A stretch of DNA of 64,000 nucleotides from Alphaproteobacteria bacterium (lineage in GTDB: Bacteria > Pseudomonadota > Alphaproteobacteria > UBA8366 > Aestuariispiraceae): contig JAWPMN010000001.1 in the NCBI GenBank assembly GCA_033344895.1, positions 868,001 through 932,000 of the forward strand, given 5' to 3'. The notes below the pieces were generated by a model. It saw nothing but the letters and a program-made list of their open reading frames with translations, ran no database searches and was not told where the DNA came from. Positions 11,287-16,744 of this stretch are shown in pieces. The number at the start of each line of letters is the position of its first letter. Position 1 is the first letter of the stretch. Position numbers and translations under genes: made by a program.

Positions 11287-13824
11287 TCACCCCTTAACGA
11301 CGAAGTTCACCAGACGCCCGGGCACGGCGATCTCCTTCACGATCTCCTTGCCCGCCAGATGTTCCTGAACGGCCGGATCGGCCTTCACCGCGTCCAGCAG
11401 CCCTTCCTTGTCCAGATTCGGATCGGCCATCACGCGGGCGCGCAGTTTGCCGTTGATCTGGACCGGGTATTCCTTCTTCTGCTGCTCCGCGGCGGCGGCG
11501 AGGATCGCCTGATCGGCTACCGGCCAGGCTTCATAGGCCAGCGTGTCGTCATGGCCAAGCTTCTGCCAGAGGTCCTCGGCCAAATGCGGCGCGAAGGGCG
11601 ACAGCAGCAGGACGAAGCTTTCCACCACCGAACGCGGGCGGCGCTCCATCGGGGTCAGCTCGTTGACCAGTTCCATCAGCTTGGCGATGGCGGTGTTGAA
11701 GCGCAGCCCGTCCAGATCGTCGGTCACACCGGCGATCGTCCGGTGCAGGAACCCGTTCAGTTCCAGGCTCGGCTCCTCATCCACGATGCGGGCGGTATCC
11801 AGAACGTCGTCCTCGTCGCAAACAATCCGCCAGGACCGGTTCAAGAATCGGCGGACACCGGCAACACCGGAAGTCTGCCACGGCTTGGTGACGTCCAGCG
11901 GTCCCATGAACATCTCATAGAGGCGCATGGAATCGGCACCGAACTCCCGCACGACATCGTCCGGATTGACGACGTTCAGACGCGATTTCGACATCTTCTC
12001 GATCTGCGAGGTCACTTCGACATCGCCGACCATCTGCTTGCCATCGACCTGCTGCACCTTCTCAGGCTCGTAATACTTGCCCTGCGCGTCGCGGTAGGAA
12101 TAGGCCAGGATCATGCCCTGGTTGAACAACTTACGGAACGGCTCCTTGGTCGATACGGCGCCAATGTCATAGAGCACCTTGTGCCAGAAGCGGGCGTAGA
12201 GCAGGTGCAGGACGGCATGTTCCGCGCCGCCGACATACAGGTCGACGGGCATCCAGTATTTTTCCTTCTCCGGATCGACGAAACACTTGTCGTTCTTCGG
12301 ATCGATAAAGCGCAGATAGTACCAGCACGACCCGGCCCATTGCGGCATCGTATTGGTCTCGCGCAGCATCGCCTCACCGGTATCCGGATCGGTGACGTTG
12401 ACCCAATCCGTGGCACGGGCCAGCGGCGGTTCGCCATTGTCGGTCGGGCGGTAATCGTCCAGCGCGGGCGGCAGGACCGGCAGGCTGTCCTCGGGCAGCG
12501 GCACGATATCGCCATCGGATTTGCGCAGCACCGGGATCGGCTCGCCCCAATAACGTTGGCGCGAGAACAGCCAATCGCGCAGGCGGTACTGAACGCGCCC
12601 CTCGCCGACACCCTTTTCTTCCAGGAAGGCGATGACCTTCTTCTTCGCTTCATCGACACCCAGGCCGTCCAGAAAACCGGAATTCACCGCGACACCGTCG
12701 CCGATATAGGCTTCCTTCTGGATATCCACCTCTTCGGTCGGTTTGATCACCTGAACAATCGGCAGATCGAATTTACGCGCAAATTCATGGTCGCGTTCGT
12801 CATGGGCGGGTACGGCCATGATCGCGCCGGTGCCATAGGACATCATGACATAGTCCGCGACCCAGACCGGCAGCTTCTCGCCATTGACCGGATTGACCGC
12901 AAAGGCGCCGGTAAAGACGCCGGTCTTGTCCTTGGCCAGTTCAGTGCGCTGAAGTTCGCTCATCTTCGATGCCTGATCCCGGTAGGCATCGACCGCTGCG
13001 CGTTGATCTTCGGCAGTGATGGCATCGACCAACGGGTGTTCCGGCGACAGAACGCAGTAGGTCGCGCCAAACAGTGTATCCGGTCGGGTCGTGTAGATTT
13101 CGAAGCTCTTGTCGCTGTCCGCCACAGCGAAGGTGACCTGCGCGCCTTCGGACCGGCCGATCCAGTTGCGCTGCATGGCCTTGATCCCTTCAGGCCAGTC
13201 CAGGTCTTCCAGGTCTTCCAGCAGGCGGTCGGCGTATTTGGTGATGCGCAGCATCCACTGACGCATCAGGCGGCGTTCGACCGGGTCGCCGGTCTCTACA
13301 TATTTCCCGTCCTTGACCTCTTCATTGGCCAGGACCGTACCCTGGGCCGGGCACCAATTCACCGGGACCTCTGCCTGATAGGCCAGCCCCCGCTCATAGA
13401 GTTTCAGGAAGATCCACTGGGTCCAGCGCACATAATCCGGGTCAGTCGTCGAAAACTCGCGGCTCCAGTCATAGGAGAAGCCGAGGCGTTTGATCTGGGC
13501 GCGGAAGGTATCGATATTCGCCTTCGTCGTGACCGACGGGTGGACCCCGGTCCGCATGGCATAGCGTTCCGCCGGCAGACCGTAGGCGTCCCAGCCCATC
13601 GGATGCAGAACATTGAACCCCTGCATGCGCTTGTAGCGACAGACGATATCGGTGGCCGTGTAGCCTTCCGGATGGCCGACATGCAGCCCCGCCCCCGACG
13701 GGTACGGGAACATGTCCAGGACATAGAGCTTCTGCTTGGAGGTGTCGACCTCGACCTTGAAGGTCTCGTTCTCCTCCCAAAAGCGCTGCCATTTAGGCTC
13801 AACCAGGCTGGGATCGTAAGCCAT
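11287..13824 (-). CDS. leuS: Leucyl-tRNA synthetase
   Basis: 845 residues, usual bacterial length. The class I signature HVGH is at residues 48-51 in the [17 protein letters not shown] context, and the KMSKS loop at 610-614 is preceded by the editing (CP1) domain and followed by the anticodon-binding helical domain. It charges tRNA-Leu. A good sigma-70 promoter lies 108-136 bases upstream of the start. No lptE/holA genes follow; the downstream gene is convergent. Confidence 0.98.
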
Positions 13825-13988: not shown

Positions 13989-15071
13989 TCAGATGTCGAC
14001 CTCCACACGACCGATCGGATTCGAACAGCAGGCCAGGATCATTCCCGCTTCGATCTCCTTGTCGGTAATCCCGCCATTATGGACCATGTGCACCTCGCCC
14101 GAAGTCTTCCTGACCTTGCAGGTGCCGCAGACGCCGAACTGGCAGGCGGACGGAATGTTCAGGCCCTGGGCCTTCGCGACCTGAAGGATCGTATCCGTTT
14201 CGCTGCATGACGCCTCCAGCCCGGCAGCAGCAAACCGGATCGTCGCGCCGGCGGTTTCATCCAGCACGATGTCGTCATGTTCGGGGCGCTGATCCTCGGT
14301 CCGGATCGGTGCGTGGAAGCTTTCCTCGTGATAATGCGCCATTTCGAAGCCGGCGACATTGAGGATATCGCGCACCGTCTTCATGAAGGGTTCCGGACCG
14401 CAGCAGAAGATTTCCCGCTCCATATAGTCCGGCGCCATCAGTTCCAACATCAGCTGGTTCAGGCGCCCCCGGTAGCCGGCCCAGGCGGAGTACGGATCGT
14501 CCTCCTCCACGACAAAGGACAGCTTGATATCCGGCACCCGCTGCGCCATGCGGCGCAATTCCGGCTCGAATATCAGTTCCGATGGGCGGCGGGCACAAGA
14601 GATCAGGGCGATATCTGTATGCTCGCCATTGTCGAACAGCCAGCGTGTCATCGACATCATCGGCGTGACGCCGGAGCCAGCAGAAATGAACAGGAACTTC
14701 TCCGCCGGATACTGCATGAAGGAAAAGATCCCGCCCGGCCCGTATGCGCGCAACCGATCCCCGACCTTCACATTGTCCAGCATCCAGCGCGACCCGACGC
14801 TGTCGGGCTGCGCCTTGACCGTTACGGATATCGACAGCGGTCGGGATGGAGAGGAAGACAGCGTATAGGTCCGCAGCAACGGTTCCGGCCCGGCAGGCAG
14901 TTCCAGCGTGACAAACTGCCCGGGCGAGTATCGAAACCAGCTGTCATCGGCAGTCTTGAAGCAGAAGGAAGTGACGTCTGGCGCCTCCGGAATGACCATC
15001 ACGCATTCCAGTTCCTTTGCATCGGTCCAGTATGTGCGCTCGTCCAGCGATTTGAATTTCGTCAACCGCAT
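13989..15071 (-). CDS. GbcB-like reductase of a Rieske oxygenase (FAD, NAD(P)H, 2Fe-2S)
   Basis: 360 residues: an FAD domain with the RTYT motif at 67-70, an NAD(P)H-binding domain ending in CGPEPFM at 224-230, and a C-terminal plant-type ferredoxin with cysteines 310, 315, 318 and 348 (C-x4-C-x2-C-x29-C). This order matches the electron-transfer partner of glycine betaine monooxygenase (GbcB) and related demethylases. It starts six bases after the oxygenase stop and shares its riboswitch-containing leader. It should pass electrons from NAD(P)H to the Rieske centre of the oxygenase at 15078-16316. Confidence 0.88.
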   Translation of the reverse strand: MRLTKFKSLDERTYWTDAKELECVMVIPEAPDVTSFCFKTADDSWFRYSPGQFVTLELPAGPEPLLRTYTLSSSPSRPLSISVTVKAQPDSVGSRWMLDNVKVGDRLRAYGPGGIFSFMQYPAEKFLFISAGSGVTPMMSMTRWLFDNGEHTDIALISCARRPSELIFEPELRRMAQRVPDIKLSFVVEEDDPYSAWAGYRGRLNQLMLELMAPDYMEREIFCCGPEPFMKTVRDILNVAGFEMAHYHEESFHAPIRTEDQRPEHDDIVLDETAGATIRFAAAGLEASCSETDTILQVAKAQGLNIPSACQFGVCGTCKVRKTSGEVHMVHNGGITDKEIEAGMILACCSNPIGRVEVDI

Positions 15072-15077
15072 CGCCGG

Positions 15078-16316
15078 TTACTCCGCCGCCGCGGGCTGCG
15101 CATAGGCGCCCAGATGCCGTGTCATGGCATCGCAATACCAGTCGACGAACTGGCGCACGCCGGTTTCGTGGACCGGGGAATAGGGACCGGGCTGATAGGC
15201 CGGGGAGTTCACCCCCAGCTGGTTCTGTTCGACCAGCAGGCGGTCCTGGTCGTTTGTCGCGTTCCAGACCTCCGTCAGGGTCTTCAGATCGTAATCGATC
15301 CCTTCGACCGCATCCTTACGCACCAGCCAGCGCGTCGTGACCTCCGTTTCCTGGGGCCCGATCGGATTGACGTGGAACGAGATCGCGTGATCGCGCAACA
15401 GGTGGTTCCAGCTGCTGGGGTAGTGGAACAGAAGCATGGAACCGATGCGCTGCTCACGGATCGCGCCCAGCATCTTGGAACAGGCGGGCTTCCCCGACAT
15501 AGTGAAACTCTCGGTATCTCGCAGGAACGGTACGCGCATGACACGGTACTGGCCGCTTTCGTCCAGATAAAACCGGCTGGGCAGACCGGCGGCCTCACAT
15601 CGGGCCCAATGATCCTGCAGAGACGTGTCGCCGTCGGTCTGTTCGACGCCGGTCACCGTCGGTGCATCGGTAAAGGTACGGCACAGTTCCGGATGGGAGC
15701 CGGAACAATGATAGCATTCCCGATTGTTTTCCCAGACCAGTTTCCAATTGCCCTTTTCGACGATCGTCGTCTTGTACGCGACCTTCGTGTATTCCAGCCG
15801 ATGCGGCAGCATGTAAGGCTCGATCCGGGCGCGGACCGGGGCGAAGTCGGACGGTACATCGCCAAAATTGACAAAGAGATAGCCGCCGACGCTTTCGCAG
15901 GCGACCGGTTTCAGCCGGTGGGCCTCGGGGTCGAAATCCGGCCCCATCTCACGCGCGAAGAGCAGCTTGCCATCCAGGTCGTATGTCCATTGGTGATAGG
16001 GGCAGACCAGGCGCGCGGCATTGCCCTGCGCCGTTTGGCAGATGCGCGAACCGCGGTGGCGGCAGGCATTGTGAAAGGCCCGAATCTCGCCGTCCGCTCC
16101 TCGCAGGATGATCGCTTCCGCCCGGCCGATGCGATAGGTGGTGTAGTCTCCGGCCTCGGGAATCTCGCAGCCGTGACCCGCGAACAGCCATTCGTTCAGG
16201 AACAGGGTCTCCATTTCCAGATCGAAGACCGCGCGGTCCGCATAGAATGCCCGTTCCAGGGAATAGCCCGGTCGCCGAGCGGCCAGCAGATTCTGGACAA
16301 GGTAAGTCGCGTCCAT
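15078..16316 (-). CDS. GbcA-like Rieske non-haem iron oxygenase (probable quaternary-amine demethylase)
   Basis: 412 residues. Rieske ligands C85, H87, C105 and H108 (CxH-x17-CxxH) and catalytic-iron residues in NNRECYHCSGSH (E200, H203, H208) are intact. The sequence, especially ENNRECYHC and VCPYHQWTYDLDG, closely resembles glycine betaine oxygenase GbcA, which removes one methyl group as formaldehyde; stachydrine or carnitine oxygenases are alternatives. The start has TGAGGAG seven bases upstream. The unusual point is the leader, which carries a cobalamin riboswitch, so expression is expected to respond to B12 although the enzyme needs no corrinoid. Confidence 0.9.
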   Translation of the reverse strand: MDATYLVQNLLAARRPGYSLERAFYADRAVFDLEMETLFLNEWLFAGHGCEIPEAGDYTTYRIGRAEAIILRGADGEIRAFHNACRHRGSRICQTAQGNAARLVCPYHQWTYDLDGKLLFAREMGPDFDPEAHRLKPVACESVGGYLFVNFGDVPSDFAPVRARIEPYMLPHRLEYTKVAYKTTIVEKGNWKLVWENNRECYHCSGSHPELCRTFTDAPTVTGVEQTDGDTSLQDHWARCEAAGLPSRFYLDESGQYRVMRVPFLRDTESFTMSGKPACSKMLGAIREQRIGSMLLFHYPSSWNHLLRDHAISFHVNPIGPQETEVTTRWLVRKDAVEGIDYDLKTLTEVWNATNDQDRLLVEQNQLGVNSPAYQPGPYSPVHETGVRQFVDWYCDAMTRHLGAYAQPAAAE

Positions 16317-16428
16317 ACCGAAACTCCTCAGTCATGTGCCGCACAGGGCGGTCCGTTGGTATGGTCGCTGGTGTTGTCATGAGGACATCCTTTCCGCGCC
16401 GATTTGCCGGACGGCAGACGGAAAGAAA

Positions 16429-16502
16429 GGCACCTCGTGATCGCCACCCGCGATCCAAGAGCAGTTCTGCCTGGGCTGGTTTCCGGACTCGAAGGGAGGT
16501 GC
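16429..16502 (-). terminator. Candidate expression platform of the cobalamin riboswitch
   Basis: In the RNA, GCACCTC (16502-16496) can pair with GAGGTGC (16436-16430), which is followed by the pyrimidine run CTTTCTTTCC. A separate small hairpin, GATCGC-GGGTG-GCGATC, lies at 16439-16455. These could form mutually exclusive terminator and antiterminator structures. This is inferred from complementarity by eye. Confidence 0.35.
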
Positions 16503-16650
16503 TAGCCGGTCGCGGCGCCTTCTCGGGACCGTGATCCCAATGGCATTCGCCGCGGTTCAACCCTTCTTACCGTTGCGGGGGCAGTGCCGGGATTTCACCG
16601 GCTTCCCAATTATCCGGCACACCAAGGAGGTGAGCCAGCACCACAAGCGC
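16460..16650 (-). ncRNA. Cobalamin (B12) riboswitch
   Basis: Read on the minus strand, the segment contains GGTGCTGG (16643-16636), GGGAAGCCGGTGAAATCC followed by the invariant CTGCCCCCGCAACGGTAA (together about 16608-16567), and a B12 box, GAGTCCGGAAACCAGCCCAG (16490-16471). GCTGG near the 5' end pairs with CCAGC in the B12 box to close the structure. These are the diagnostic conserved elements of the AdoCbl riboswitch class. It lies about 140 bases upstream of the Rieske oxygenase start on the same strand, and no other gene is placed to be its target. Confidence 0.93.
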
Positions 16651-16744
16651 GGCGAATGTGCGCCTGGTCGCATGTTCGGGATTTCTGCATCGCGACAGGT
16701 AACGTGCTGGCAGCGACAAGCGACGAAAAACGCCTGCTTTGCCC

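Follow-up and report, generated by a model that had tools for sequence, protein, structure and literature searches.

A cobalamin riboswitch ahead of a GbcA/Stc2-family Rieske demethylase operon in an alphaproteobacterium, and its co-distribution with MttB-family methyltransferases

We analyzed a 64-kb stretch of alphaproteobacterial DNA (contig JAWPMN010000001.1; the whole stretch of 64,000 nucleotides is called the window below), in which a cobalamin riboswitch lies on the minus strand ahead of two genes encoding a Rieske-type oxygenase and its partner reductase. A preliminary description of this DNA had named the RNA and the enzyme pair, and had suggested that the oxygenase could be a B12-independent isozyme if the cell also has a corrinoid methyltransferase for the same substrate. 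The features of the locus are listed here by window position.

16457 to 16661, minus strand: cobalamin riboswitch aptamer (RF00174), from a full-length cmscan match
16567 to 16584, minus strand: core CTGCCCCCGCAACGGTAA, holding loop L5, read from the sequence
16439 to 16455, minus strand: hairpin GATCGC-GGGTG-GCGATC directly 3' of the aptamer, from covariation in 70 aligned leaders
16324 to 16329, minus strand: probable ribosome-binding site GAGGAG, seen in the sequence 7 nt before the ATG at 16316
15078 to 16316, minus strand: Rieske oxygenase subunit, GbcA-like, 412 amino acids, from Pfam, NCBIfam and PDB comparison
13989 to 15071, minus strand: reductase subunit, GbcB-like, 360 amino acids, from Pfam FAD, NAD and 2Fe-2S domains

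An Rfam cmscan of the window returned a single match above the gathering score, the cobalamin riboswitch RF00174 at 16661-16457 (minus strand), which covers the full model (1-189 of 189) with 106.4 bits (gathering score 31.5; E = 1.2e-25). In addition to the core CTGCCCCCGCAACGGTAA, whose loop we take to be L5, the aptamer contains the second conserved segment GGTGAAATCC and a B12 box, GCCATTG, that is one base off the Rfam consensus GCCACTG. The riboswitch with an invariant core and a B12 box that the preliminary description had recognized is therefore real by the covariance check it had itself proposed. Its coordinates need small corrections: the aptamer runs from 16457 to 16661 and not from 16460 to 16650, and its overall range of 15078-16650 takes in the oxygenase gene while omitting the reductase gene and the first 11 aptamer bases.

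A feature of cobalamin riboswitches is a regulatory hairpin 3' of the aptamer, with a loop able to pair with L5; it lies outside the Rfam model. In an alignment of 70 leaders, the window leader included, each of the six stem pairs of the hairpin directly 3' of the aptamer is a standard pair in 68-70 leaders, with substitutions in both arms (A-U/G-C and U-A/U-G/C-G/A-U), and an outer seventh pair forms in only 51 of the 70. Its loop is G-rich in 69/70 leaders and can pair with the C-rich L5 (computed L5-L13 duplex, -13.0 kcal/mol), so that the hairpin would look like the kissing-loop partner of L5, presumably the element named P13/L13. A 140-nt spacer on the minus strand separates the aptamer from the oxygenase ATG, and between riboswitch and gene lies a mini open reading frame (ORF), ATG-TCC-TCA-TGA, at 16377-16388, behind GGAAAGG.

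Pfam domains of both ORFs confirm that the riboswitch precedes a Rieske oxygenase and its reductase. The oxygenase has Rieske (61.6 bits) and Ring_hydroxyl_A (126.8 bits) domains, and its translation contains CRH...CPYH, the usual Rieske ligand pattern. Its best NCBIfam model is GbcA (NF058607, 512.3 bits; equivalog cut-off 670), that of the reductase, whose gene begins 6 nt past the oxygenase gene, is GbcB (NF058606, 388.9 bits; equivalog cut-off 500), and neither protein reaches its cut-off. The Rieske and catalytic domains and an adjoining partner reductase, all expected of a GbcA, were found. The nearest PDB structures are 3n0q (541 bits) and 3vca and 4qup (519 bits each), the latter two presumably being the stachydrine demethylase Stc2. 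The label "GbcAB-like" of the preliminary description thus agrees with the best models and is too narrow for the scores, for which "GbcA/Stc2-family quaternary-ammonium Rieske demethylase" is the better name. On the same strand, 164 nt past the reductase gene, leuS (11287-13824) might share the riboswitch-controlled transcript.

Several comparisons bear on which substrate the enzyme uses. Against the GbcA model, two sequences from a different class (family f194, probably Pseudomonadaceae given a CrcZ match in L184) score 790 and 803 bits, above its cut-off. The scores are 508-535 bits for the window protein and the eight homologues tested from alphaproteobacteria, 502 bits for a Ruegeria TM1040 protein, and 498.5 bits for the oxygenase of the Sinorhizobium meliloti locus L156, which we take as Stc2 because its gene stands beside annotated stc4 and stc3. 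At seven positions that separate a GbcA set (six alphaproteobacterial and three other-class sequences) from two Stc2-type sequences, the window protein follows the GbcA set at six, Stc2 at none and neither at one. A homologue from Paracoccus that shares 58% identity with the window protein lies near a BCCT transporter, fdhA, electron-transfer flavoprotein genes and an FAD oxidoreductase, a neighbourhood as expected for glycine betaine; the Rfam scan of that locus gave no cobalamin riboswitch. Glycine betaine is our best guess for the substrate of the window enzyme. The riboswitch also precedes genes resembling GbcA proper in L134 and L137 (631 and 649 bits, below the 670 cut-off) and Stc2-like genes in Ruegeria TM1040 (riboswitch 109.7 bits; protein 68% identical to the Stc2-locus protein) and L130 (65%), so that this control seems to follow the enzyme family and not one substrate.

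The leader is conserved in relatives, as the preliminary description had anticipated. Among the nearest homologous loci, taken as the best 80 of at least 594 GTDB-genome loci encoding a relative, 62 carry the 16-base core with no more than one mismatch, 231-348 nt ahead of the matched coding region. All ten core-positive loci scanned with Rfam matched; the 18 core-negative loci were all scanned, and 17 had no cobalamin match, the match in the remaining one (L070) lying 1.3 kb upstream. A riboswitch was found at 7/19 homologous loci in a sample of the class. Of 50 further genomes with a match, 28 yielded loci for comparison: 19 further loci of the class, ten of them with the riboswitch, and nine from other classes of the phylum, none with it. 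The S. meliloti pSymB homologue has the riboswitch too (100.3 bits). At L129 (2842-3365) and L171 (2820-3343), gbcA is preceded by two divergent cobalamin riboswitches in back-to-back arrangement, with about 100-130 nt between them. Two other accounts of the window element were rejected: a chance match to the core, since the full covariance model is matched and its place is conserved in relatives, and a riboswitch belonging to the upstream acyl-CoA ligase operon, since it sits past the last gene of that operon and accompanies gbcA in relatives.

At the level of protein families, the cell has a B12-dependent counterpart to the oxygenase. The window genome, assembled as one contig and 98.8% complete, has five MttB-family proteins, the genes that the preliminary description had proposed to look for. 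The PDB comparison, which covered the best-scoring of the five (769 bits in Pfam), gave 4yyc ("Putative trimethylamine methyltransferase", 809 bits), 2qne (431 bits) and 9yce ("Glycine betaine methyltransferase", 430 bits). One gene away is that of a divergent protein that combines FAD-oxidoreductase and GcvT domains, as dimethylglycine or sarcosine dehydrogenases do. A B12-binding_2 domain was found only once in the genome, in a stand-alone, MtgC-like corrinoid protein of 229 amino acids. There are also MtgD-like (pterin-binding) and MtgE-like (homocysteine S-methyltransferase) proteins. Two pterin-binding proteins were found, and the gene of the weaker one neighbours a MetF-like gene and a gene for an S-methyltransferase-domain protein; the best of three S-methyltransferase-domain proteins (210 bits) is encoded beside a pyridoxal-phosphate enzyme of Cys/Met metabolism. 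The Pfam modules of MtgBCDE (MttB, B12-binding, Pterin_bind and S-methyl_trans) are therefore all present, at separate places in the genome, and neither MetE nor a full-length MetH was found in it.

Additional observations concern these gene families. In L147 (7792-9501), two genes on the same strand come after that of the stand-alone corrinoid protein; they encode a DUF1638 protein and a small PF13769 ("Virulence_fact") protein and may be accessory to the corrinoid system. Another genome of the window genome's genus (G184) has three MttB-family genes and no gbcA match at E <= 1e-110, and the oxygenase may therefore not be fixed in the genus. Beside the gbcA riboswitch, the window genome has two further cobalamin riboswitches. 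The second (L089, 4237-4452; 123.8 bits) precedes a 112-amino-acid frame (L089, 4470-4808) that has no Pfam, NCBIfam or plasmid match and is followed by a septation-protein-A-like gene. The third (L090, 12861-13101; 91.5 bits) lies before a cbtA cobalt transporter gene (11862-12614), an ordinary type of target.

If the oxygenase is a B12-independent stand-in, the riboswitch is expected only where the B12-dependent enzyme exists. We searched for MttB (PF06253) in 98 other gbcA genomes, 79 from the 80 nearest loci (L039 was left out of these counts) and 19 from the class sample; some are metagenome-assembled genomes (MAGs), which may miss genes. MttB is present in 67 of the 68 genomes with a riboswitch at gbcA and in 10 of the 30 without (Fisher p = 1.6e-12), and the nearest-loci set alone gives 60/61 versus 4/18 (p = 3.5e-11). 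The best MttB score reaches at least 761 bits in 66 of the 67 genomes that have both, as it does in the window genome (769 bits), the exception being a MAG (L015, 719.8 bits). In a control set of 14 well-known genomes, MttB was found in one, Methanosarcina. A cobalamin riboswitch over the cut-off is still present somewhere in 20 of the 21 gbcA genomes that have no MttB, so that its loss at gbcA is not a general loss of B12 riboswitches.

The single genome with a riboswitch at gbcA and no MttB is that of Rhizobium sp. Leaf371 (L074). Its riboswitch (L074, 4642-4833) scores 57.9 bits, the lowest of the gbcA riboswitches scanned (next lowest L129, 79.7 bits); the core is substituted, the GGAAACCAG segment altered, and three of the six P13 pairs and the G-rich loop are lost. 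Such a pattern would be expected if selection had relaxed once the counterpart was lost, and L074 is possibly a snapshot of riboswitch loss.

The association was also examined on a quick maximum-likelihood gene tree of 100 oxygenases, in which 35 of the 97 inner branches have under 80% support. For this tree, the 808-amino-acid frame of L030 was cut to 430 amino acids, and L143, with a stop codon inside its match, was represented by the open stretch that carries the Rieske motif. MttB changes six times and the riboswitch 12 times on the tree. Of six independent MttB contrasts, a mean of 4.6 (range 2-6) show the riboswitch changing in the same direction, and none shows the opposite. A model of correlated evolution is preferred over the independent model (likelihood ratio 21.2, 4 degrees of freedom, p = 2.9e-4), with a fitted riboswitch loss rate of 13.2 without MttB and 0.49 with it, about 27-fold apart. 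One MAG on the tree, L055, is labelled Arenimonas (Lysobacteraceae), and its gbcA locus groups with Rhizobiaceae; it is perhaps mis-binned.

These analyses establish the riboswitch RNA and its conservation, show that genes of both enzyme types are present, and document how the two occur together across genomes. They make it likely, in our judgement, that the operon for the O2-dependent demethylase is turned off by B12 through its riboswitch and offers a B12-independent alternative to the corrinoid betaine route of the cell. Here we infer the off-with-B12 direction, the substrate and the equivalence of the two routes. Under this proposal, abundant B12 would act through the leader riboswitch to turn the operon off, and the corrinoid route would be used: an MtgB-type (MttB-family) protein would move the methyl group to MtgC, and MtgD would hand it to tetrahydrofolate, so that the methyl is kept as a folate-bound one-carbon unit. 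When B12 is lacking, the O2- and NADH-dependent oxygenase would take over demethylation, removing a methyl group as formaldehyde, the product expected of Rieske demethylases, from a substrate that is a quaternary amine and most probably glycine betaine. The isozyme reading of the preliminary description is thus supported, since the gbcA riboswitch tracks MttB across genomes and on the gene tree, with the exceptions on one side. A further suggestion, which we hold tentatively and regard as somewhat short of even, is that the riboswitch also spares scarce B12 for methionine. Because no MetE and no full-length MetH were found, methionine appears to depend on MtgC, MtgD and MtgE, and at low B12 the oxygenase would relieve the shared corrinoid protein of betaine breakdown. 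The same logic could hold for several quaternary amines, because riboswitches precede GbcA-proper-like and Stc2-like genes as well as the third subfamily, that of the window.

A number of results weigh against the counterpart proposal or narrow it. No intrinsic terminator was found between the aptamer and the oxygenase gene; the one match, at 15572-15590, falls inside the coding sequence and was rejected as an expression platform, and control of the operon may be translational or Rho-dependent. With both proteins below their equivalog cut-offs, the substrate is not fixed by the models. The MttB comparison is confined to genomes with gbcA, and its class sample taken alone is weak (7/7 versus 6/12, p = 0.044). 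Ten of the 77 MttB-bearing gbcA genomes have no riboswitch at gbcA, so that the riboswitch implies MttB and not the reverse. In four of these ten (L062, L138, L140 and L142), every MttB protein scores lower (<745 bits). In L070 (3605-6245), a cobalamin riboswitch is followed by a NicO-type nickel/cobalt-transporter gene, with the Rieske oxygenase frame 10 nt behind, an apparent operon that would join metal uptake and a B12-independent oxygenase. The other five (L030, L077, L131, L135 and L141) are plain exceptions; a decayed riboswitch was sought in L077 by alignment with one relative, and nothing recognizable was seen. On the gene tree, the sign tests are mostly non-significant (median p 0.0625, or 0.125 with riboswitch-chosen pairs). 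The fitted rates are poorly determined, and the same fit gives fast MttB gain where the riboswitch is present, so that the dependence between riboswitch and MttB could run in either direction. Given these rates, the weak branch support and the use of a gene tree, we take the tree tests as support and not as proof.

The most serious alternative keeps the same switch and the same isozyme logic and assumes a different quaternary amine as substrate, such as proline betaine, carnitine or butyrobetaine, for which a different one of the five MttB proteins would be the counterpart. According to PMC12478193, the MttB family has members that act on proline betaine, butyrobetaine and carnitine; the GbcA score of the window protein (512) is near that of the Stc2-locus oxygenase and far from those of the f194 sequences, and the riboswitch stands before the Stc2-like genes of Ruegeria TM1040 and L130 too. 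Set against this are the six of seven separating positions at which the window protein follows the GbcA set, with Stc2 followed at none, and the betaine-type neighbourhood of the 58%-identical Paracoccus homologue, and we consider a different substrate unlikely. The link between riboswitch and MttB could also be a by-product of ancestry or lifestyle, the riboswitch controlling gbcA for reasons other than an MttB counterpart. So few changes on a quick, partly weakly supported tree, sign tests mostly above 0.05 and poorly determined rates leave room for this. The preference for correlated evolution, the lack of any opposite independent pair and the decay of the switch in the MttB-less L074 speak the other way, and make it distinctly improbable to us.

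It has to be considered, too, that the oxygenase might aid B12 synthesis or supply, for example by providing glycine or one-carbon units for the corrin ring, and would belong to the B12 regulon for that reason and not as an isozyme. Betaine feeding raises industrial B12 yields, as stated in the portion of PMC8123684 consulted; gbcA lies near other cobalamin riboswitches in L006, L010, L129 and L171, and directly behind the nickel/cobalt-transporter gene in L070. That explanation has little chance of being right, as the gbcA riboswitch tracks MttB: the 21 MttB-less gbcA genomes are 20 without a gbcA riboswitch plus the decayed L074, even though all but one of the 21 have a cobalamin riboswitch and L074 has three in its genome. 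Least credible of all is a riboswitch that acts on a separate short RNA or on some other gene and merely happens to lie upstream of gbcA. The roughly 140 nt from the aptamer to the start codon, with the mini-ORF in between, would allow it, and the recurrence of the core on the same strand at a similar distance from the matched region in 62/80 loci argues for gbcA as the target.

If the counterpart proposal is true, control by B12 riboswitches extends beyond cofactor making and saving and beyond anabolic isozymes to the choice of a catabolic route, here between two chemically unrelated uses of an abundant osmolyte, corrinoid methyl transfer and O2-dependent demethylation. Betaine turnover in soil and sea would then be tied to the supply of B12, and formaldehyde stress and O2 use would be predicted under B12 limitation. 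The leader together with MttB would offer a simple handle for predicting which bacteria switch, and the claim made in 2025 of a corrinoid core shared by betaine and methionine metabolism would become testable from the other side.

With respect to earlier work, the 2003 catalogue of B12 elements by Rodionov et al. is reported to contain "ardX-frdX", a pair of aromatic-ring-dioxygenase and ferredoxin type under a B12 element, which is not known to have been linked to betaine or to MttB. This may be the same operon as that of the window, in which case the sequence association is old and the addition is its place opposite the MttB/Mtg route. In the part of PMC545781 consulted, frdX is the name of another gene. 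Among the matches listed by full-text literature searches (titles, abstract starts and some passages), none places a cobalamin riboswitch before an oxygenase acting on betaine or on another quaternary amine. Within the parts of these sources that we consulted, PMC3766115 has a category "isozymes of B12-dependent enzymes", with oxygenase, betaine and gbc absent from its main text; PMC4059872 merely counts cobalamin riboswitches; and PMC2573895 describes three chromosomal cobalamin riboswitches in S. meliloti, the pSymB one not being among them.

Compared with GbcAB of Pseudomonas and Chromohalobacter, the window operon has the same domains, the same two-subunit layout and the same best NCBIfam models. 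It differs in that the window oxygenase is 49-50% identical to three f194 sequences (two were scored, both above the GbcA cut-off) and is itself below that cut-off, and in that all nine loci from other classes are without a cobalamin riboswitch. Stc2 belongs to the same Rieske demethylase family (53-55% identity), but its locus L156 has no riboswitch and the window protein departs from it at the separating positions. The presumed B12-dependent counterpart resembles MtgBCDE of Ruegeria pomeroyi, described by Mausz et al. (2025; PMC12478193) as working both in methionine synthesis and in the demethylation of betaine, in that the window genome has MtgB-, MtgC-, MtgD- and MtgE-like genes as judged by Pfam domains. 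In the passages of that article consulted, "riboswitch" occurs once, in a reference title, and GbcAB is presented as a pathway that other bacteria use.

Known cases of a B12-independent isozyme under a cobalamin riboswitch are metE and nrdAB. The closest parallel is riboswitch-controlled metE, found for instance on Mesorhizobium symbiosis islands (PMC7643969, seen in part), where the same RNA family stands over a B12-independent enzyme. Unlike metE, the target in the window is a catabolic, O2-dependent Rieske oxygenase, whose expected product, formaldehyde, differs from that of its presumed corrinoid counterpart.

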